A stretch of 34,001 nucleotides of DNA from a virus. Below are positions 1 through 34,001 of the stretch, piece after piece; the stretch's first letter is position 1; every line of letters begins with the position of its first letter. The stretch is from the IMG/VR virus record IMGVR_UViG_3300031841_001540, positions 1-34,001 of that record, one strand, 5' to 3'. The notes below the pieces were generated by a model that was given only the letters and a program-made list of their open reading frames with translations, did no database searches and was not told where the DNA came from. The translations under genes and the position numbers were made by a program.

Positions 1-50
1 GTGTAGTCCTTAACATCGTCACCTTTTTGTATGGTTATGACATATTTCAT
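1..50 (-). CDS. Hypothetical protein, N-terminal fragment (runs off window)
   Basis: An ATG at base 50 opens a frame that continues past base 1 and reads MKYVITIQKGDDVKDY. The ATG overlaps the TAA stop of the preceding gene as TAATG, the junction used throughout this phage, which supports it as a real start. Only 16 residues are visible, so no family or function can be given. It is probably the next member of the small-gene string that begins at base 1304. Confidence 0.5.
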   Translation of the reverse strand, partial: MKYVITIQKGDDVKDY

Positions 51-307
51 TACGCTACTCCCTGTGCATATTTAATAGTTTGATAGATATTTTGTGCTTC
101 TTGGTCGTCAAATGTTTTGAAAGGTATTTTCTTTTCAAAGCGACCTGCAAAACCTTCTACCAATTTGATATCGTCACCTATACCATCTTCAAACTTTCTT
201 ATGATAAGTCTTTTACCTTCTTTGCTCTTGGTAAAGTAGATAGTAGTCAATTTACATTTTTTACCTAAATACTTTACATCTTTGGTTGTTGTTTTTACTG
301 CTTCCAT
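50..307 (-). CDS. Small hypothetical protein (85 aa)
   Basis: An 85-residue, lysine-rich soluble protein with no recognised motif, signal peptide or membrane segment. The ATG is preceded by a clear AGGAG Shine-Dalgarno sequence about 7 bases upstream. The gene follows the 104-residue unknown gene with a 24-base gap and overlaps the next start as TAATG. It lies downstream of the strong promoter near 678-705, so it probably belongs to an early or regulatory transcript separate from the virion genes. Function unknown. Confidence 0.75.
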   Translation of the reverse strand: MEAVKTTTKDVKYLGKKCKLTTIYFTKSKEGKRLIIRKFEDGIGDDIKLVEGFAGRFEKKIPFKTFDDQEAQNIYQTIKYAQGVA

Positions 308-331: not shown

Positions 332-646
332 TTAACCACCAATGCAGTTCCAATATCCACTTGCATGTGCTACCACTCTTTTATGAGATATTTTTTCTAT
401 AACCTCTAAAGGGCTACCACATACAAATCCAACAGCATCTGCAAATTTGTTGAAGTCTTTTGGATTTATGACTGCAACCAACTCGTCTTTCCAATGCAAG
501 TCTTCTTTGTTTTTGACACCGATTTGTCTTAAGTGGTGCATTTTGTTTGCAAGTTTATAGAACTCTGCAAAGTTATCTCTTTTTTGCTCACTTGTGTATT
601 CAACGCTTTTAGCGAATTTTGGGTTTTTTACTAATGTTAATGTCAT
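332..646 (-). CDS. Small hypothetical protein (104 aa)
   Basis: A 104-residue protein without a recognised domain. It has a basic N-terminal half and a C-terminal stretch with VVAHASGYWNCIGG at its end. The ATG has an AGGAG Shine-Dalgarno sequence with a 7-base spacer. It is the first gene after the best-matching sigma-70-type promoter of the window (TTGATA, 16 bases, TATAAT at 678-705), so it likely heads its own transcript together with the 85-residue gene. Function unknown. Confidence 0.75.
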   Translation of the reverse strand: MTLTLVKNPKFAKSVEYTSEQKRDNFAEFYKLANKMHHLRQIGVKNKEDLHWKDELVAVINPKDFNKFADAVGFVCGSPLEVIEKISHKRVVAHASGYWNCIGG

Positions 647-677: not shown

Positions 678-705
678 ATTATACACAGCTAACATTTATT
701 ATCAA
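678..705 (-). promoter_or_regulatory. Sigma-70-type promoter
   Basis: On the minus strand TTGATA (700-705) and TATAAT (678-683) are separated by 16 bases, in the 88-base gap upstream of the 104-residue gene. The -35 box lies inside a tandem 10-base repeat (702-721). A second minus-strand promoter at 30909-30936 has an almost identical -35 context at the same distance from its TATAAT. Confidence 0.7.
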
Positions 706-721
706 CACTTTTCAACACTTT
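702..721 (-). repeat. Perfect tandem 10-base repeat, candidate operator
   Basis: Minus strand AAAGTGTTGA occurs twice in direct tandem (702-711 and 712-721), overlapping the -35 box of the promoter at 678-705. Direct repeats about one helical turn apart are typical binding sites for ribbon-helix-helix dimers, and a ribbon-helix-helix gene lies about 650 bases away. Operator function is inferred. The repeat itself is seen directly. Confidence 0.5.
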
Positions 722-734
722 ATTTACATTATTT

Positions 735-1304
735 TTATGGCAGTATTTCATACACATAACCTCTTACCGACCTAGGTTTCTTTAATACTATCTCATGCAA
801 ATTGCCTTTTACTTTTTTGGTAAAGTCCCAGAATGTATCTCTGCCCGGGTCTGCAATAAGTATTGGACACTTGGCTTGTTTGACTAACTTCTTTATGTTG
901 CCAACGTGTTGCTCCCAATAACAAATGTCACAACCAATAATTAAATCTATCTTGCCAAAGGCAGCTTCAGGTAAGTCTTTGTAATCCATGTATAAGACTT
1001 CAACGCTTGTCTTGTTGTATTTATTCACCACATCAACAAAAGGTTTGGTGTTTACATCTATATCTATGCCACCACAATCAATGCCTTGTTTTTGTAAATA
1101 AGCCAAGACCACACCCCAACCACAACCAATGTCGACTGCTGTCTTTACTTTAGATAAGTTATACCGTGATAAAAAATCTATGATAGTAATAGAAGAGTTC
1201 CAGACTTTGTTACCATGACTGATTGGTTTTTTGGTTTGTCGCTTAATCTTCTTGATATCTCTATCAGTAGATAATGGAATTTTTATGTTGTGAATTGATT
1301 TCAT
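735..1304 (-). CDS. Class I SAM-dependent methyltransferase, protein-lysine MTase-like
   Basis: A 189-residue Rossmann-type methyltransferase. Motif I is VDIGCGWG (residues 57-64), followed by an acidic loop GIDID (79-83) that should bind the SAM ribose. The segment LIIGCDICYWEQ (121-132) and then ILIADPGR (148-155) resemble the METTL21/ETFB-lysine methyltransferase group, where DPGR is characteristic, so a protein substrate is more likely than DNA or a small molecule. This is a family-level inference. A promoter (TTGCTG, 17 bases, TAATAT) ends so close to the ATG, which lacks a Shine-Dalgarno sequence, that the mRNA may be leaderless. It is divergent from the ribbon-helix-helix gene. Confidence 0.75.
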   Translation of the reverse strand: MKSIHNIKIPLSTDRDIKKIKRQTKKPISHGNKVWNSSITIIDFLSRYNLSKVKTAVDIGCGWGVVLAYLQKQGIDCGGIDIDVNTKPFVDVVNKYNKTSVEVLYMDYKDLPEAAFGKIDLIIGCDICYWEQHVGNIKKLVKQAKCPILIADPGRDTFWDFTKKVKGNLHEIVLKKPRSVRGYVYEILP

Positions 1305-1521: not shown

Positions 1522-3815
1522 CCTAAACCACCAATCCCACTTTTATTCATCAACCTTTCAGCTAACTCTCTATCTTTAGGGTTAGGCAATATAGTTTCTG
1601 AAATCATAGACTCAGGTGTTACCGCAGTTGCAGGCGGCACCAAAGGTATGTCTGACGGTGTAAAAGTGTTTAGTGCGTTATCAATTTGTGTAGAGAGATT
1701 TTCTTTTTCTGCATCCCTTCTCTCCATTTCTCTCTCTAGTGCTTGACCCTCGTATGGTCTTTGTGACTCTTCAGTGATTGCTTCTACACCTTCACCGATA
1801 GCCCTAGCACCTGCTTGCTTTCCAAAATACTCAAGACCAGATAAATAATTATAAGCCTCATCTATAGATTTACTTGCATCAGGGTCAAACAATATGTCAG
1901 CTAAAGCTTTATAGTATGCCTCAGACTGTTTAATGGCTATGTTTCTTACAACCTCATCTCCAACTTGACCTGACAAAATTCTACCCGGCAATCTTATGAT
2001 TGTTAATATTCCCTTCAAGGCATTGGCACTTAGACTACCTGTTTCACTCATAAGCTCTTTTTCTAATGCAGAAAGTGGTTGAGTATCTGAGCTACCTTTC
2101 TTAATAGAAAAGGCTCTGCCTACTAAATCCATTAGTTTATTTAGCTGTGCTGTTTCTTCTGGCTCAAGTAATGCATTGACCATCTTTTGAGCATTAGGTG
2201 TTTTAAAAAAGTTTTGAAACCTTGGCAGTCCTTCGTCTACCGTTGCTTTCGTAAAATCATCTAATGTTTGTAAAAAGTATTCTTTTTTAATTTCTTGAAA
2301 TGCAAGTGGGTCAACATTTTGTAATTGTGTTTTAGCTGTACGCAAAGCTGACTCTGAAGCTCTTGGGTTAAACAATATTTTTAAAGCTCTAGCCGATTGC
2401 TCGTCTTTAACAAGCTTAGCCATAGAAGATATGATGCCCCTTTCGTATGCTAAAATGTTTGGCTGAGTTGGGTCGTATACCTTACGAGCCATAGCATAAA
2501 CGCCGTCTGATGCCTCGTCCATATTTTTAGTCATTTCTATCTTGATATCGTTTAGAACCTTTTTGGTATAAGGACTAGCGTTTTGTATTAAGTTACCAAT
2601 AGAGCCTGAACGTCTTTGGTGCATGTCCATTAAGTCTGTTATCAACTTATCATCAGCATCAAACATTAACGCCTTGTATTGCTCAAGTCCTGCTTTAACA
2701 TCAGGGTCTAATCTTTTATTAGCCAACTTGCTGTCTATCATCTTTACAATACTATCTGCATCAAACTGTATGCGTTCAGGTGCATTTTCTAAACTATCGT
2801 ATATGACCTTGGCCCTTGCCTTCCTAGCAGCATGAATATCGTCTAAAGCCTTTTGTGATACCTCTTGTATGACCCTACCAATATCATCGGTTGCTTTTAC
2901 GTTACCAAGACCGTCTGCAAAATTAGTTATAGCTTCTCTAATTCTAGCGTTTCTATTGTTGTAAAAGTTAAATATCTTTTCTGTATCAGCCTGCCTATTG
3001 AGAAAAAATTGAATACTTCTAGCCTTGGTTCCAATAGCCGAAGCTTCTGCAGGCGTAAGTTCAAAGCCAAGCTTTCTTGCTTCATCTATAATTTCTGACT
3101 CACCTTTTCTTAAATTTAGTAAATAATTAAGAGTATCTTCTTTGCCTGTAAATTTATTGATGATTTGTCTTGTTGGCCCGGCACCAAAAGGTATGGATGA
3201 GAAGCCACTAGATATCAATAAATCTTTATGTGCAGCCGATACTTCTTCAGGTGGTAAATTGTAAAAACCCTCTATGCCTAGCTCTCTAATAGTTCTAGCA
3301 CCACCACCTGCTAGGTAATTACCACCAAAACCGCCTACAGCAGTTGCACCCAATACTGTCAAACCAGCTGTTAATGGATTTTTTGTGTAAGGAAGTGGAC
3401 CTGCAACTAATTTTAATCCTTGTTTAAATCCTTCTTTAGCACCCTTTAGTCCACCATATAAATCAGCAGCAAAAGTACCTGCTGGTACTATATTAGGGTA
3501 TATGTATTTATTACTAAAGTTACCTAGAATACCTGCATCTGTTGGTAGCTCAAATTCTTTTGAGTATCTAACACCGTTTTTCTTAAAATCACCTTTAGGG
3601 TCTTCGTAATACAAATCGTTATCTATGTAAATATATCGGTAAGGAGCCAATGGGTCGTTAGGAAATCTTTGGCTTGCTAAGTAATCTATTTCAGAATCTT
3701 CGTCAAAAAAAAGACTAGACTTAATAGTTTTAGAAATATAACCAGAATTTATTTCCTGATTCTTTTCTTCTTCCTGCTTTAAGGCGGCTAATCTTTCCTC
3801 GTATGACTGTGCCAT
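1518..3815 (-). CDS. Large internal virion / ejection-type protein (765 aa)
   Basis: A 765-residue, largely helical protein. A Gly/Ala-rich hydrophobic stretch around residues 130-170 (TAGLTVLGATAVGGFGG) could insert in a membrane; the rest is charged helix, and the C-terminus is proline-rich with a final LAERLMNKSGIGGLG. It is the last of four large genes after the tail genes, the place where short-tailed phages encode internal proteins that are ejected into the cell. No enzymatic motif is seen. The ATG follows the preceding stop directly. Alternative: a large structural protein of other function. Confidence 0.65.
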   Translation of the reverse strand: MAQSYEERLAALKQEEEKNQEINSGYISKTIKSSLFFDEDSEIDYLASQRFPNDPLAPYRYIYIDNDLYYEDPKGDFKKNGVRYSKEFELPTDAGILGNFSNKYIYPNIVPAGTFAADLYGGLKGAKEGFKQGLKLVAGPLPYTKNPLTAGLTVLGATAVGGFGGNYLAGGGARTIRELGIEGFYNLPPEEVSAAHKDLLISSGFSSIPFGAGPTRQIINKFTGKEDTLNYLLNLRKGESEIIDEARKLGFELTPAEASAIGTKARSIQFFLNRQADTEKIFNFYNNRNARIREAITNFADGLGNVKATDDIGRVIQEVSQKALDDIHAARKARAKVIYDSLENAPERIQFDADSIVKMIDSKLANKRLDPDVKAGLEQYKALMFDADDKLITDLMDMHQRRSGSIGNLIQNASPYTKKVLNDIKIEMTKNMDEASDGVYAMARKVYDPTQPNILAYERGIISSMAKLVKDEQSARALKILFNPRASESALRTAKTQLQNVDPLAFQEIKKEYFLQTLDDFTKATVDEGLPRFQNFFKTPNAQKMVNALLEPEETAQLNKLMDLVGRAFSIKKGSSDTQPLSALEKELMSETGSLSANALKGILTIIRLPGRILSGQVGDEVVRNIAIKQSEAYYKALADILFDPDASKSIDEAYNYLSGLEYFGKQAGARAIGEGVEAITEESQRPYEGQALEREMERRDAEKENLSTQIDNALNTFTPSDIPLVPPATAVTPESMISETILPNPKDRELAERLMNKSGIGGLG

Positions 3816-27496: not shown

Positions 27497-29263
27497 TTAT
27501 AAATGTTTTGTATAGATTTTTAATGGTTTTGCTTTTCCTTTAACCTTGATAGATTCTAACACTTTTAATTTGTAACCACAAAACTTTTCTGTTTCTTCGC
27601 CTATTAAAATATCTACATTTCTTTCTTTTGTAGCTGATTCTAGTCTTGCAGCTGTATTTACAGCATCGCCTATAGCAGAATAATCAAATCGTGTATCACT
27701 ACCCATGTTACCAACTATTGCATCTCCAGTATTTAATCCTAAGCCTATTGCTACAGGTGGCAAGCCTTCTGCTACCAATTCATCGCTTACTTTTTTAACA
27801 TTTTCTATAATTTCTAATGCACACTCGTATGCTATTTGTTCGTGATGTTTTACATCTAAAGGTGCGTTCCAGATGTACATGCCTGCATCACCGATAAATT
27901 TGTCAATGCAACCATTGTATTTTTGCACTGCTTCAACCTGTGCTGTTAGAACTCTATTCATAATATAAGTTACTTTTTCAGGCTCTACAGACTCACTCAA
28001 GGCTGTGAAGCCACGCAAGTCTGTAAACATAAAAGTGCATCTTCTTTTCTCTCCACCAAGTTTTAAGAGTTCAGGATTTTTTTGTAATTGTTTTACTTGT
28101 CTTGGGTCAAGGTAATGCTCAAACTGTTTTTTTATTTGTTGTCTTAGTTTGTATTGTTCTCTAAATCTAAGGTAAAAACCTATAGACCCGGTGATAAATT
28201 GTGATACTAAAGACCAAGTTACATCTATTAATATACCTGCTTGTATTGCGTAATAGCCACCTAAAGCCGTAGAAAGCATTATTGCTAATGCCAATGCAAC
28301 TCCTAGGGTTATACCAAAATATGCAATTACGAGCCATATAAGGGTTACTGATGTGATAAAAATTAACATTTCAGCAGCTATAGACCACTCAGGTATCATA
28401 GGAGAGTCTTGTATTAGTATTGATTCTGCTAACGCTGCTTGTATCTTATGTGGCTCTAACAAGCCTACAGGCGTGGCTACTTGTGGCATTACACCGTTTG
28501 CAGTGACACCAATAATTACAAACTTACCTGCTACGTTCATTTCGTCTAATGTTGTTGTAGGTGTATTAACCCAACTAATCCATTTGCGACCAAAGTTGTC
28601 TGTTTTTACAGGCGGTAAATGTCTTACTGCAATTTCCTGTATGCCGTTTGCATTGGTGGTAATTATGTACGACCTAGTGCCTGTAAGTGCTTTTAATATT
28701 TCTGTGCCAAAGCTAGGTGTCCAACCGTCAGGTGTTTTCATTAGTAAAGGTATGCGTCTTACTAGATTATCTACATCAACAGGTGCTGTGGCGATACCTT
28801 GAAAGCTTTTTTGTTTTAACACATCTATGTTTTCAACTACGCCTGCTGTTGGTATGCCACCAACCTCATCGCCTTTTATTACGGTGCCAACTGTTTTTGG
28901 ATATTGACCGTTAGGTGTTTCAAACATTGCTAGTACGCTTGGTAAATAACCAAGTGTTTGTGCAAAAGCATCATCGCCACCAAACCTATCAGCTTCTGAA
29001 AATGATAATGCCCACCCAATACCTATAGCACCTTCGTTAATAAGGTCTATTTGTATTTGTGCTAAATCTCTTCTAGGAAAGGGAAAACCACCGCGTTTCC
29101 TTACGTCTTCTTCTGTGATATTTAAAATAACAAAATTACCGCTTGGTTCTTGTTCTTTGACTAAAGCATCAAATGTTTTGAGTTTTAGTATTTCTGTAGG
29201 TACTGACTGAAACACTAACGGTAGAGCTAGTATTATCAGTATTAGTAATATTAACTTCTTCAT
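27497..29263 (-). CDS. CHASE2-domain class III adenylate/guanylate cyclase (588 aa)
   Basis: An inner-membrane signalling enzyme. Residues 5-20 form a membrane segment; 25-285 form a CHASE2 sensor domain facing the periplasm, with FVILNITEEDVRKRGGFPFP and FVIIGVTANG then PHKIQAALAESIL as marks; three membrane spans follow (about 293-365), then a charged linker and the catalytic domain (405-588). Metal-binding Asp415 (FTDLRGFT) and Asp459 (FIGDA), Lys455, and Asn536/Arg540 (VNTAARLE) are all present. Ser529 replaces the Asp/Thr that, with Lys455, reads adenine, so ATP preference is likely but not certain. The catalytic set looks active. The start overlaps the methyltransferase stop as ATGA. 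Confidence 0.92.
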   Translation of the reverse strand: MKKLILLILIILALPLVFQSVPTEILKLKTFDALVKEQEPSGNFVILNITEEDVRKRGGFPFPRRDLAQIQIDLINEGAIGIGWALSFSEADRFGGDDAFAQTLGYLPSVLAMFETPNGQYPKTVGTVIKGDEVGGIPTAGVVENIDVLKQKSFQGIATAPVDVDNLVRRIPLLMKTPDGWTPSFGTEILKALTGTRSYIITTNANGIQEIAVRHLPPVKTDNFGRKWISWVNTPTTTLDEMNVAGKFVIIGVTANGVMPQVATPVGLLEPHKIQAALAESILIQDSPMIPEWSIAAEMLIFITSVTLIWLVIAYFGITLGVALALAIMLSTALGGYYAIQAGILIDVTWSLVSQFITGSIGFYLRFREQYKLRQQIKKQFEHYLDPRQVKQLQKNPELLKLGGEKRRCTFMFTDLRGFTALSESVEPEKVTYIMNRVLTAQVEAVQKYNGCIDKFIGDAGMYIWNAPLDVKHHEQIAYECALEIIENVKKVSDELVAEGLPPVAIGLGLNTGDAIVGNMGSDTRFDYSAIGDAVNTAARLESATKERNVDILIGEETEKFCGYKLKVLESIKVKGKAKPLKIYTKHL

Positions 29264-30891
29264 TCCATGTTTTTAAATATATGGCATATAACATCTACCG
29301 TCCAACCATTGCCTAGCATTTTATATCTTTGTGTATTGGACACATGATTGGTGTAATTATCTGGAACTGTCTGTAGTCGTTCACATTCCAAGGGTGTAAG
29401 CTTACGCCATGTTAGGTCTTCGCTTGCAACAACACTATCTTTACCAACAGTAGTTATAGCGTTTGATTTATTGTCTTTTCGTAACTCAAGCATTTGTTTG
29501 GTTTTATTGGCTACAGAACTACCGTCTCTATCTATGCGTTTGCCGTCTTTATCATAAGCTCTGCCACGAAAAGCACCACCTGTCACAACCTTAGGCTCAT
29601 TGTTACCACCACTACAAGCTGTTACTGTAGGCGATTTGCCATCAGGACTATAGACTCGTTTGAGTATGTCATGTCCGTTTATATCAACAGCTATGCCTAC
29701 TTGTTTGGGTTTGGTTTCTATGTATTGGTCTTTATTAGATGCTGTTAACGTAGGTGACTTACCTTCTTCACTATATACTCTTTGTTTGCTTTCATACACA
29801 CCGTCACGATACTCAAACTCCATAATCTGTGCATCAAATATATCTGTGTTCAGACCTAAAACTTCTTTTAGCTTGAACCAAATATCATCACTTGGTATAG
29901 CAAAACTGTTGTCGTTTCTAAACCAATGCTCTACCTTGGTAACAGGCGTGTTGGTTTCTTCAGCTATTTGTTTGTTGGTTTTGCCACTGTTGGTTTTCAT
30001 GGTTCGTAAAAGCCATTTAAGGCTTTCAACATGAACTTCGTGTTTCCTTACCTTTACCTGTTCTACATTCATGCCAACTTTAATTGGTCTTGTAGCTACA
30101 TTTGTTCTATCAGCAAATGAAGCTGTAAGGCTGTGACTTTTGCCGTCCTCGTGAAAAACTCTATCTTGTATATATGGTTGTTTACCACTAGCTTTTTTAC
30201 TTGGGTTTACTTGTATAGGTTTGTTGACAGGAACCATAGTCCTTTGTCTTTTTTCTATACTGTTCCATGGCACAGCACCTGTATAACTTGCGGTCAAGCA
30301 ATGTGCTTTACCCTCTTTGCTTGTCATTTTATCCAAGTTGTTATCAACTTCTGTTTCTAGTATGTCTCGCAAGACTATACCTTTGTCTTCAGGTTGTTGT
30401 ATGTTTGGTATGTTAGTCCAATAATATCTTTGCCTTGATTGGGCTGAAAGAAGCGAACTGTTTATAAAAATGGGTTCAATACCAAAGGGTATTTCAGGAT
30501 AGCAGTCAGACACTTGTTCTGATATAACTTGCAAGAACTCTTTTTTCATTCTTACGTTTTCAAGCAAGAAATACTTTGGTTTTATTTCTTTGAGCAACCG
30601 AATAAACTCAAAAAACAAAGCACTTCTTGGGTCATCAAAAGCAAGTTGTTTGCCTGCAAAACTAAATCCCTGACATGGACTGCCTGCAAGCATGAGGTCT
30701 ACATCCATATAGTCTTTAGGGTCTAGGTCGCAAATATCACCGACCTGAATGATATCAGGATAATTTGCTTGGCTTACTTGAATAGCATATTTGTCTATCT
30801 CACTTGCATAATACTTTTCTACAGGTATGCCTAATCGGTCTAATGCAATACGACCACAACTCATACCATCAAATAAACTTAAAACTTTCAT
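29260..30891 (-). CDS. Orphan C5-cytosine DNA methyltransferase with inserted HTH domain (543 aa)
   Basis: Methylates cytosine in DNA. Motif I LFDGMSCG (6-13), catalytic Cys73 in GSPCQGFSFAG, ENV (111-113), QSRQRYY (151-157), a motif IX-like WRKLTPLECERLQTVP (495-510) and motif X MLGNGW (525-530) are all seen. The recognition region is long: five variants of a GKS-x-TLTAS unit (about 194, 250, 377, 418 and 475), and a helix-turn-helix insert at 286-350 (KTNKQIAEETNTPVTKVEHW). No restriction partner is encoded, so it probably protects phage DNA. A promoter and an AAGGAG sequence precede it, separating it from the FecR gene. Confidence 0.92.
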   Translation of the reverse strand: MKVLSLFDGMSCGRIALDRLGIPVEKYYASEIDKYAIQVSQANYPDIIQVGDICDLDPKDYMDVDLMLAGSPCQGFSFAGKQLAFDDPRSALFFEFIRLLKEIKPKYFLLENVRMKKEFLQVISEQVSDCYPEIPFGIEPIFINSSLLSAQSRQRYYWTNIPNIQQPEDKGIVLRDILETEVDNNLDKMTSKEGKAHCLTASYTGAVPWNSIEKRQRTMVPVNKPIQVNPSKKASGKQPYIQDRVFHEDGKSHSLTASFADRTNVATRPIKVGMNVEQVKVRKHEVHVESLKWLLRTMKTNSGKTNKQIAEETNTPVTKVEHWFRNDNSFAIPSDDIWFKLKEVLGLNTDIFDAQIMEFEYRDGVYESKQRVYSEEGKSPTLTASNKDQYIETKPKQVGIAVDINGHDILKRVYSPDGKSPTVTACSGGNNEPKVVTGGAFRGRAYDKDGKRIDRDGSSVANKTKQMLELRKDNKSNAITTVGKDSVVASEDLTWRKLTPLECERLQTVPDNYTNHVSNTQRYKMLGNGWTVDVICHIFKNME

Positions 30892-30908: not shown

Positions 30909-30936
30909 ATTATACTCATCATAGAATAGAAGTCGA
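30909..30936 (-). promoter_or_regulatory. Sigma-70-type promoter of the DNA methyltransferase
   Basis: On the minus strand TATAAT (30909-30914) lies 16 bases downstream of TCGACT (30931-30936). The -35 region lies in AAAGTGTCGA (30933-30942), nine of ten bases identical to the repeat at 702-721 and at the same distance from its TATAAT. The site is in the 58-base gap between the FecR and methyltransferase genes. Confidence 0.65.
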
Positions 30937-30949
30937 CACTTTTTTGCAC

Positions 30950-32047
30950 TTAATTGCTTTGCGTAATTCTAATAACACTGCCTTCTCCACCGTTTATAGT
31001 AACAACATTAGATATGCCGTCTTGTATAAATATAACTGTATAACTTGCTGCACCGTTTATATCTACCCTTGCTGTACTTTGCACACTTCTTAGCAGTGTT
31101 AAAACTTCACCTGTATAAAAAGAAGTAATTTGTGTATCTAAGTCTTGACCTAGCTTAGTACCTTTGATGTTTGTAGTAATTCCGTCTTGTGCTAGTGCAT
31201 CTTCTTCTTTAACAACCTCTAAAGCATCAATGACATCAAGCAAATCTTCTAAAAAATTTACATCAAGATAATTAATATCTAGTTCTGTAAATTCTAATTC
31301 ATCTTCTTTTAAAAAATCTTCTTCTAAATAATCTATATCCAAGTCGTCAAAGTCTAAGATATTTTTCTTCTGTGCAACAACTTCTTCGCTTTCAATTATT
31401 TCTTCATCAGGAGGGTTTACAATTAACATGTTGTCAATTAACTCTAAGGATAAATCCAAAATTACAGGTTTGCTTGGTGCCTTCTCAAAAACATCTACTG
31501 TAGTTGCTTGAAAAGGTTTGTTTAATAAAACGCTGCCTGTTGCTGTAATAACTTCTATTTCACCGCTTGATATGCCGTATTTGTCTGGTAGCAGTATGAC
31601 TAGTGTTCTACCGATTTCATCAATTGTGGTTGTAAAATCTGTGCCACGAATTGCTATGTTTGCGGTGGGTGTTTTAAGTTTTATATTTTGTTTATCTATC
31701 CTATTTAGGTTTCCGGTAATAAATCTTGCTGTACCAAGACTAAAGGTTAGAGCCATTTTTGATTTAGATGGGTCAGGGTCGTAGATATATTCGTCTATAA
31801 GAAGTTCTGAATGTTCAGTTAGTTTTACAGTTGAGTCGTCAAGAAAGGTAATAGCCATGCGGCCATTAGTTGTAACGGCTTCATCATTACTTTGTATGCC
31901 AAGATTTAACTCGGCTTGTAATGGTTCATCTCTTAATATTCGTGCAACACCATTTAGTTCTGATATATCACCTATATCAGCAACCTGTTGTTGTTCCCCC
32001 ATCATTTTGAGTGATACAAATATTAGAGTTAGAAGTAGTGCTTTCAA
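30950..32047 (-). CDS. Secreted FecR-domain protein with acidic repeats (365 aa)
   Basis: A likely periplasmic or exported protein. A short hydrophobic signal (residues 2-13) is followed by a FecR domain at 30-140: VARILRDEPLQAELNLG, NGRMAITFLDDSTVKLTEHS and NIKLKTPTANIAIRGTDFTT. Then come two 20-residue acidic repeats (231-250 and 251-270; LDFDDLDIDYLEED-type) and a beta-rich C-terminus (YTVIFIQDGISNVVTING). The first in-frame start is TTG at 32047, just after a stop codon, and it overlaps the curlin-like gene by 71 bases; internal ATGs would lose the signal. FecR normally relays outer signals to inner-membrane partners; a CHASE2 cyclase is encoded two genes on. Confidence 0.85.
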   Translation of the reverse strand: MKALLLTLIFVSLKMMGEQQQVADIGDISELNGVARILRDEPLQAELNLGIQSNDEAVTTNGRMAITFLDDSTVKLTEHSELLIDEYIYDPDPSKSKMALTFSLGTARFITGNLNRIDKQNIKLKTPTANIAIRGTDFTTTIDEIGRTLVILLPDKYGISSGEIEVITATGSVLLNKPFQATTVDVFEKAPSKPVILDLSLELIDNMLIVNPPDEEIIESEEVVAQKKNILDFDDLDIDYLEEDFLKEDELEFTELDINYLDVNFLEDLLDVIDALEVVKEEDALAQDGITTNIKGTKLGQDLDTQITSFYTGEVLTLLRSVQSTARVDINGAASYTVIFIQDGISNVVTINGGEGSVIRITQSN

Positions 32048-32702
32048 TTTTTAACCAATCCCTTGCAAGTGTTGATGATTGTATGATGTTAAATGTGTTA
32101 CTACTGCCATCTAAATCCATATAAAAATATGCTGAATCAGACGATGTAGTACCTGCATAACCACTTCCAGTAAAGTTTAACGTGTTAGAGCTGCCATTTA
32201 TATCTACAAAATTTATAGCATTAGCATAATCAATATCAATATCAAATACGTTAGAGCCACCTAAAATAGTGTAATCTAAATCAAGATAAGATGAGTCTGC
32301 ATCTTCAGCTATTTTAATGTCAAATTCGTTACTGCTACCTGTAACATCAATCATTAAATTCACATAATCTGCACTAATTAGTCCTGTGCTGTTTAGCAAA
32401 ATATCCATAATATTGCTATCACCATCAAACTCAAAAAATCCAGTAAAGTTATCGCCGTCAATAGCATCTGACCTAAATATGTTACTAGCACCTATTTGGT
32501 TTATATCAAGTGTCATTGAGACACCATCAAGGTCAAGTGCGGTCATAGTCCCAGATATTGCAGAGGTACCACCAATAAGGTTTGAGCTGCCCAGTTGTTC
32601 TATGTCTATAGATGCAGAATTACCGCTTTGGTCTACATAGATTTCGTTATCTGCTAATGCTAATACAGAAACAAACAAGGCTAGATTAATTATTTTCTTC
32701 AT
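31977..32702 (-). CDS. Secreted curlin-like repeat protein (241 aa)
   Basis: A probable substrate of the phage CsgG channel. A signal peptide (residues 1-17, ending ALA) is followed by IYVDQSGNSASIDIEQLGSS, continuing to Asn41, which matches the CsgA/CsgB repeat pattern with Gln, Gly and Asn at the right places, and LDINQIGASNIF. At least six further units of a looser hydrophobic-x-hydrophobic-x-GSSN-x-F-x-I type follow, spaced 22-33 residues (Asn at 41, 74, 97, 125, 151, 173, 202, 227). It is very acidic and ends in Cys. A beta-solenoid or amyloid fibre fold is expected. It overlaps csgG by 17 bases. Confidence 0.75.
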   Translation of the reverse strand: MKKIINLALFVSVLALADNEIYVDQSGNSASIDIEQLGSSNLIGGTSAISGTMTALDLDGVSMTLDINQIGASNIFRSDAIDGDNFTGFFEFDGDSNIMDILLNSTGLISADYVNLMIDVTGSSNEFDIKIAEDADSSYLDLDYTILGGSNVFDIDIDYANAINFVDINGSSNTLNFTGSGYAGTTSSDSAYFYMDLDGSSNTFNIIQSSTLARDWLKIESTTSNSNICITQNDGGTTTGC

Positions 32703-33504
32703 ATTTCCAATACCCTTTATCGTAACCGATAATAATAAGTTCTAATACAGCACCTTCTATAGCTTTCATTAAAGCTATTGTGGTGCTTTCGTTTCGTGAA
32801 ACACCAAATTCTACTTCTACCAACTCTGTTCCCATTTCTATAAATTTAAACAAGTCTTGAGACTGTCCGTAGCTTAGTATTGTTTTACTTGACAAAACTT
32901 CTACTAAAATTTCACCTGTGGCAACAGAAACCATCCTTAGGCTGACAGTAATTGTATCTTCACGATATTGTACGCTTGACCCAATGCCTAGGTATCTTGC
33001 ACCTGCACCACCTGTTATTAAGTTACTATCATACGACACAACAGCACCTTCGAGCAACACGCCTGCAAAGAGCAAGGGCATAATAGTTTTTTTATCTTCT
33101 AATTCTTCTCTAGTGCTACGAATTATCTGTCTTTCTTTTACAAGATTATCAAGACCGACCCTCTCAACCACTCTAAAAAAATTGCCGTTGCTTGCATGTT
33201 TTAAGGCTCGTATAAGTAAATTGCTTGGTGCTTGAGTAAGGGCTGTAGAGAACAAAGCAAACTCGCTATTACTTTTACGCTGCCCTGTTTGGTCTGTAAA
33301 TGCAGTAGGATAGACAGCTACTACAGGCATAGTTTTTGGAGGCGTAATATTTAGAAGCTCTTGCGATTGTAACGAATAAATACTAGGCTTGTCTTTGTTT
33401 TTGTGTTCGTATCTTATTTGTTTCGTGTCTTGTATGACACTATTGATAGAACAGCTAGAAAGTAAAAGAACCAATAGGTAAGGTAATTTCTGTAATATTG
33501 CCAT
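32686..33504 (-). CDS. csgG: CsgG, curli outer-membrane secretion channel
   Basis: A lipoprotein that should form the nonameric outer-membrane curli pore. Numbered from the first ATG at 33510 (ATG at 33504 is M3 and equally possible), the signal peptide ends in LLLSSC with Cys20 for lipidation. Conserved CsgG blocks are clear: DQTGQRK (73-79), FSTALTQ (87-93), FRVVERVGLDNLVKERQIIR (112-131), VVSYDSNLITGGAGARYLGI (157-176), SLRMVSVATGEIL (190-202) and SSKTILSY (207-214). Length (274) is close to E. coli CsgG (277). The constriction loop differs: Phe87 is kept but the neighbouring Asn and the Tyr appear replaced. It overlaps csgF. Confidence 0.95.
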   Translation of the reverse strand: MAILQKLPYLLVLLLSSCSINSVIQDTKQIRYEHKNKDKPSIYSLQSQELLNITPPKTMPVVAVYPTAFTDQTGQRKSNSEFALFSTALTQAPSNLLIRALKHASNGNFFRVVERVGLDNLVKERQIIRSTREELEDKKTIMPLLFAGVLLEGAVVSYDSNLITGGAGARYLGIGSSVQYREDTITVSLRMVSVATGEILVEVLSSKTILSYGQSQDLFKFIEMGTELVEVEFGVSRNESTTIALMKAIEGAVLELIIIGYDKGYWKYEENN

Positions 33505-33967
33505 CTGCATCAGTTATTTTAAGTGTAATAAATTGTCCATCAGATGTATATTCTATAGTATTACCTTCAAGTTCTATAGTGCCTTCGGTTTGTGGAGTTT
33601 CACCAAAAAGATTATCTACTAGCTGTCGCGATAGCTGTGCGTAAATTCTTGACTCTAAATTTTTAAGAAACCTTGCAAGTGTGGTATTTTCTTTATCTCT
33701 TTCTATTTGTTCCTGTAAAGCTTTTAATTCTTCTTTTATAGTCATCTTTCTTGTGTGCTGTTGGTTTTCAATAGTCAGATAATGTGAACTTGTATTGATA
33801 CCACTAAAAGATGGTGATTTGAATTTATGAACTATTTGGTCGGCTTTGATGTTTTGCACGAAAACACCAATAATTAAAATTATGCCAATGAGCATTATTG
33901 ACCATAGCAATTTATCTTTTTCAAGCTGTTCTTTTTCTAATTGTTTTTTAGTCTTTCCTTTGGTCAT
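33455..33967 (-). CDS. csgF: CsgF, curli assembly factor
   Basis: Partner of CsgG. Numbered from the ATG at 33967: a long charged N-region (Lys/Glu, residues 1-20), a hydrophobic segment (21-39) and likely cleavage after NIKA, giving mature DQIVHKFKSPSFSG. This matches the E. coli CsgF N-terminus that inserts in the CsgG pore (F-x-x-P-x-F-x-G). The C-terminal FLKNLESRIYAQLSRQLVDN and the beta domain with TIEYTSDGQFITLKITDADG also match. The track frame extends to a TTG at 33985 but the ATG is preferred. Residues 75-95 form a charged helical insert. It overlaps csgG by about 50 bases. Confidence 0.88.
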   Translation of the reverse strand: MTKGKTKKQLEKEQLEKDKLLWSIMLIGIILIIGVFVQNIKADQIVHKFKSPSFSGINTSSHYLTIENQQHTRKMTIKEELKALQEQIERDKENTTLARFLKNLESRIYAQLSRQLVDNLFGETPQTEGTIELEGNTIEYTSDGQFITLKITDADGNITEITLPIGSFTF

Positions 33968-34001
33968 CTCTATCCGCCTTAGCAATTTTATTGCTATCTA
34001 T
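33948..34001 (-). CDS. C-terminal end of an upstream gene (partial)
   Basis: The minus strand enters the window in an open frame that reads IDSNKIAKADRDDQRKD and stops at TAA 33948-33950, overlapping the start of csgF by 20 bases. The overlap fits the style of this cassette, so a real upstream gene is likely. Seventeen residues are too few to identify it; a CsgE or other curli gene cannot be tested from here. Confidence 0.4.
   Translation of the reverse strand: MDSNKIAKADRDDQRKD

Follow-up and report, generated by a model that had tools for sequence, protein, structure and literature searches.

Regulons in which one phage repressor reads operators dispersed over the genome are of a known kind, as with the P1 C1 operators and the stoperators of mycobacteriophage L5. 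The phages described here share with these systems short asymmetric sites that lie across the genome and would be read by one phage protein, for which we propose a candidate, P52. They differ in that each site takes the form of a direct tandem repeat anchored to the −35 region of a promoter, and in that the sites are few per genome and tied to exchangeable accessory genes. Ribbon–helix–helix (RHH) repressors such as MetJ, CopG, omega and Arc also act on tandem repeats over or near a promoter. The likeness extends to the very small size of P52, with an extended N-terminal stretch followed by a helix, and to side-by-side repeats about one turn apart that overlap the promoter; however, neither profiles nor structure prediction supported RHH membership of P52, and AAGTGT at a period of 10 was not matched to a known operator. 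Class II activators that bind direct repeats, such as lambda CII and PhoB, likewise use a pair of directly repeated half-sites, spaced by roughly one turn, around the −35 position, but here the TTG of the −35 hexamer and a consensus −10 are kept, and no homologue of CII or PhoB was found that would read the site. Finally, phage morons are additional genes that carry a promoter of their own and have been inserted between conserved ones, as seen here; unlike in morons, a single operator is common to the promoters at different insertion points, and the extra genes therefore appear to be co-regulated.

The window, which is the whole stretch of DNA analysed, comprises 34 001 bases and is the entire IMG/VR record. 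The group to which this phage belongs consists of uncultivated, curli-carrying marine bacteriophages. Its terminase is 55–59% identical to those of HTVC023P/HTVC027P-type phages, and an attempted host assignment from TerL matches in bacterial contigs gave a mixed marine result. The window encodes a curli-type module of CsgF, CsgG, a curlin-repeat-like protein and FecR (30950–33985, minus strand) together with a CHASE2 adenylate/guanylate cyclase (27497–29263, minus strand). The csgF–csgG–curlin–FecR–cyclase neighbourhood is already known from HTVC023P-type pelagiphages (PMC9599517), a paper whose main text makes no mention of promoters. While the gene neighbourhood is the same, the deposited members HTVC023P, HTVC027P, 023Pt_psg01 and DSL-LC04 have neither the operator site nor P52 in the 50 kb examined. 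When the modules were compared by blastn with 50 697 phage records, the only matches were weak and at chance level.

Two promoters in the window, both on the minus strand, carry the element. Promoter B matches 11 of 12 consensus positions, with a −35 hexamer TTGATA (700–705), a 16 bp spacer and a −10 hexamer TATAAT (678–683). The perfect tandem of AAAGTGTTGA that the preliminary description had placed over its −35 box is indeed present, although the repeat proper occupies 702–721 only, the remainder of promoter B accounting for 678–701. The upstream copy (712–721) has its AAGTGT core at −49 to −44 and is conserved in relatives; the core of the downstream copy (702–711) lies at −39 to −34 and overlaps the −35 hexamer. 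The same element occurs at the promoter of the DNA methyltransferase, as had been claimed: promoter A (30909–30936) consists of TCGACT (30931–30936), 16 bp and TATAAT (30909–30914), and is overlapped by AAAGTGTCGA (30933–30942). At both promoters AAGTGT stands exactly 21 bases ahead of TATAAT, which agrees with the equal distance reported previously (25 bases from the start of GTGT). Promoter A had been credited with a single copy, and in this respect the earlier account is incomplete; an imperfect second copy, AAGTGC (30946–30951, minus strand), which starts within the FecR stop codon and reads AAGTGT in relatives, lies 10 bp upstream of AAAGTGTCGA, so that A and B are both tandem sites. Both promoters are of the σ70 type, with near-consensus −35 and −10 hexamers, a spacing within 16–18 bp and a gene downstream; the median distance from site to start codon, taken over the sites, is 34 nt. 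The motif AAAGTGTYGA-N18-TATAAT is found twice in the window compared with zero times in 300 Markov-1 simulations, and the loose single motif (at most one mismatch) 13 times compared with a shuffle mean of 6.2. Chance occurrence in AT-rich DNA, a concern attached to the original observation, is ruled out by the simulations, the shuffles and the spacing preference in relatives.

This preference was measured in 167 loci (1.4 Mb), all fetched through protein similarity alone. Of the distinct AAGTGT-to-TATAAT pairs in them, nine are spaced by 21 nt and seven by 31 nt, and no other distance between 10 and 40 has more than one. Tandem sites pooled from a scan that had no −10 requirement and from the loci of an earlier scan gave the same phase: a −10-like hexamer (at most one mismatch) follows at N19 in 64 of 103, with other distances reaching at most 15, and exact TATAAT follows at N19 in 39 cases and elsewhere in one. 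An in-phase −10 is present at 97 of the 103 tandem loci with gene homology to the phage group (P52 or at least one homologous gene) versus seven of 55 without it, the former count being favoured by the TATAAT requirement of the first of the two scans. The full tandem with TATAAT was recovered from 79 stretches of viral contigs; in 257 Gb of bacterial and archaeal genome sequence it had no match. The same site was sought upstream of bacterial genes and no bacterial genome of an 84 980-species collection has the pattern; a host regulon is thus rejected. All 32 contigs searched have one or two sites, with zero in the reversed control. An unrelated phage group (loci L268, L282, L306 and L318) has AAGTGT-N4-AAGTGTTGAC and TANAAT in the same phase and lacks P52, which is probably a coincidence of one lineage.

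The operator–promoter sites sort into 20 promoter classes, and their conservation extends beyond the promoter hexamers. Across 12 P52-anchored spacer classes, the mean pairwise identity is 0.77 and 0.84 for the two repeats and 0.86 for the −10 hexamer versus 0.44 for the spacer and 0.38–0.41 for the flanks; since sites were admitted with up to four mismatches in 18 positions, the values for the conserved positions are somewhat inflated. Conserved positions outside the promoter elements, a fixed phase and several promoters per genome are thus combined, as in an operator. In nearly all classes TTG comes after the second repeat, though not after the first; the −35 element therefore looks to have been under selection apart from the operator, in keeping with a promoter that is self-sufficient and repressed. 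The preliminary description had offered two interpretations, a phage regulon or an extended −35 element read by a modified polymerase, and these fared differently. The regulon is supported by the −10 phasing, the conservation against diverged spacers, the clade specificity, the presence of several promoters per genome and the co-distribution with a conserved small phage protein. The modified polymerase is not supported: given the consensus −10 and the separately kept TTG, a normal σ70-type holoenzyme suffices, and this interpretation was set aside for an element that is clade-restricted and does not need it.

The genes behind the sites are exchanged. Behind the 89 distinct sites the first genes, most of them short, belong to 39 families, and different genes lie behind the same promoter module in different contigs. 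In the window the first gene behind promoter B is a 104-residue ORF (332–646, minus strand), followed by an 85-residue ORF (50–307, minus strand), a homologue of which takes the first place behind the same promoter in another contig (L240/L353). Slot A lies between the FecR-domain gene (30950–32047, minus strand) and the cyclase gene, the conserved genes before and after the cargo, and holds a C5-cytosine DNA methyltransferase (29260–30891, minus strand; DNA_methylase, 4.6e−51). This protein has a long mid-protein insert with a stretch that by eye resembles a helix–turn–helix (IAEETNTPVTKVEHWF). In the majority of other phages with FecR, the cyclase begins directly after the FecR stop, and slot A therefore looks like an insertion. 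Between FecR and cyclase in contig L446 (approximately 3391–3420) lies TAAAGTGTAGAAAGGTGTTACTATAGG, an apparent remnant, or scar, of a lost operator–promoter cassette. Slot B1 lies behind the gene for a class I SAM-dependent methyltransferase that closely precedes promoter B (735–1304, minus strand; Methyltransf_16, 6.7e−07), slot B2 behind an 83-residue gene, and a further position in genome G006 is near the capsid gene. A promoter common to all methyltransferase relatives was considered and rejected; among the upstream regions listed, only those of the closest few (L009–L015) have the site, because it is tied to the insertion slot rather than to the gene.

Cargo genes frequently terminate in GGAGGTGGCGTAATG; there the gene end holds the Shine–Dalgarno sequence, the stop codon and the start of the following gene (for example in L349–L386 and at G001:317, G002:2617 and G022:6552). 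Such junctions number 22 in the P52 loci and zero in both the reversed control and the terminase loci, and look like a standard joint for gene exchange. Some genomes also encode a 248-residue ORF that by eye resembles a serine recombinase (G001:45763–46506 and G015:11590–12333), is 93–95% conserved among relatives and is possibly linked to cassette exchange or lysogeny.

The protein that most likely controls these promoters, judged from sequence, is P52 (1363–1521, plus strand), the best candidate. Residues 1–15 of this 52-residue protein are invariant in 14 aligned members, and its identity is 87–100% between genomes in which neighbouring genes are often 67–82% identical. The site (at most one mismatch) is present in 36 of 41 loci fetched by P52 alone, compared with zero in the reversed control and 3 of 80 terminase-fetched loci, a co-occurrence that is partly synteny because promoter B lies near P52. 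Independent support for the link between P52 and the site rests on promoter A, which is approximately 30 kb away, and on joint absence in relatives: 24 FecR-bearing contigs, including ones of 58 and 63 kb, have neither, in a search whose control run detected nine P52-positive contigs. In clade 2 a tandem promoter lies about 100 bp from P52 in divergent orientation, and the P52 promoter has AAGTGT 27 nt before TATAAT, in the same −39 to −34 register, with a further GTGT 11 bp downstream. AAGTGT is found in this register in the P52 promoter of several relatives, in some of which it overlaps the start of the SAM-methyltransferase gene. The copy is degraded in the window, where the upstream region of P52 (1305–1362, plus strand) has only GGTGTT (1305–1310) before TATAAT (1330–1335).

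An RHH label for the 52-residue protein was not established. P52 has no Pfam, PHROG or PDB-sequence match above threshold and no significant match to an RHH profile; a match to TraY, an RHH-type family, was sub-threshold (0.028) and occurred in two of the 14 members, and hhalign found no match to TraY or RHH_1. AlphaFold2, given 14 close homologues or the single sequence, predicts a monomer with one continuous helix spanning residues 15–51, and a Foldseek search with P52 returned nothing.

On balance, we consider it probable that the repeats serve a phage regulon as operators, with σ70-type promoters repressed through tandem direct repeats over the −35 element, putatively by P52. Each such promoter consists of TTGNNN, 16 bp and TATAAT or TATTAT, together with two directly repeated AAGTGT half-sites spaced by one helical turn (−49 to −44 and −39 to −34), the second of which abuts and overlaps the −35 hexamer; promoter, leader and one or more small genes form an exchangeable unit that is found at several fixed places. 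P52 units may read the half-sites side by side on the same face of the DNA, covering approximately −50 to −33 and occluding the −35 hexamer from σ70. The host polymerase would then express the accessory genes, here including the DNA methyltransferase, early or by default, and P52 would shut them off later while limiting its own synthesis through the AAGTGT in its own promoter. The architecture, phasing, conservation, clade specificity, co-distribution and cargo exchange were demonstrated computationally; to these we add, by inference, P52 as the binder, repression as the sign and the timing.

The sign could be the opposite, with P52 or another phage protein acting as a class II activator that would recruit the host RNA polymerase to middle promoters while repressing its own gene. 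This is unlikely in our view, but it retains some weight because the operator centre, at −41.5, is the classical class II activator position. The direct repeats on the same face, the imperfect −35 of several classes (TCGACT, TTGTTT, TTGCAT) and the downstream shift of the repeats in the P52 promoter, to a repression-like position, also fit an activator. However, most classes have a consensus TATAAT and conserve TTG apart from the repeat, and several promoters (TTGACA/TTGACT-N16-TATAAT) should fire unaided; this apparent self-sufficiency of the promoters favours repression. The reader of the sites may instead be another trans-acting factor, either a different phage protein or a hijacked host regulator. 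P52 lacks a recognised DNA-binding fold and shares its restriction to the clade with other genes, but the absence of a host regulon of such architecture from the 84 980-species collection and the unusual conservation of P52, its position adjoining the operator in clade 2 and the half-site in its own promoter make this rather improbable.

Two further explanations were considered. AAGTGT-N4-AAGTGTTG may be an extended −35 or UP-like element of a strong promoter for the host polymerase, with no regulator involved, and the occurrence of AAAGTGTTGAC at promoter-like sites of unrelated phages (the seven of 55 with an in-phase −10) is consistent with this. Against it stand the strict clade restriction, the G-containing repeat at −49 to −44, for which no known polymerase contact accounts, and the related FecR-bearing phages that do without the element, and we regard it as quite improbable. 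Least probable, and only slightly credible, is recent copying alone, in which a cassette boundary or recombination sequence that moves with its cargo is conserved by descent. A leader, GGTATATYAAATAAA…AGGAG, is common to different places, cargo is swapped, and the recombinase-like ORF and the apparent scar in L446 agree with such movement; yet both repeats and the −10 hexamer are kept in 20 promoter classes whose spacers have diverged strongly, and a recombination site does not need phasing to a −10 hexamer. Copying can be compatible with the regulon reading.

The present regulon, the AAGTGT operator and P52 were not found described in the open-access text. For this group of uncultivated marine phages with curli genes, the analysis proposes a candidate transcriptional regulon, names a testable candidate regulator, P52, and yields a DNA signature for locating the fast-changing accessory genes of the group. 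It also suggests how new genes can come under shared control at once. A bolder reading, which we hold to be possible but doubtful, is that P52 founds a new minimal, 52-residue, non-RHH class of DNA-binding protein that reads AAGTGT repeats, with one portable operator–promoter serving as a standard socket. If this is true, any newly captured small gene would be placed under common control at several positions in the genome.
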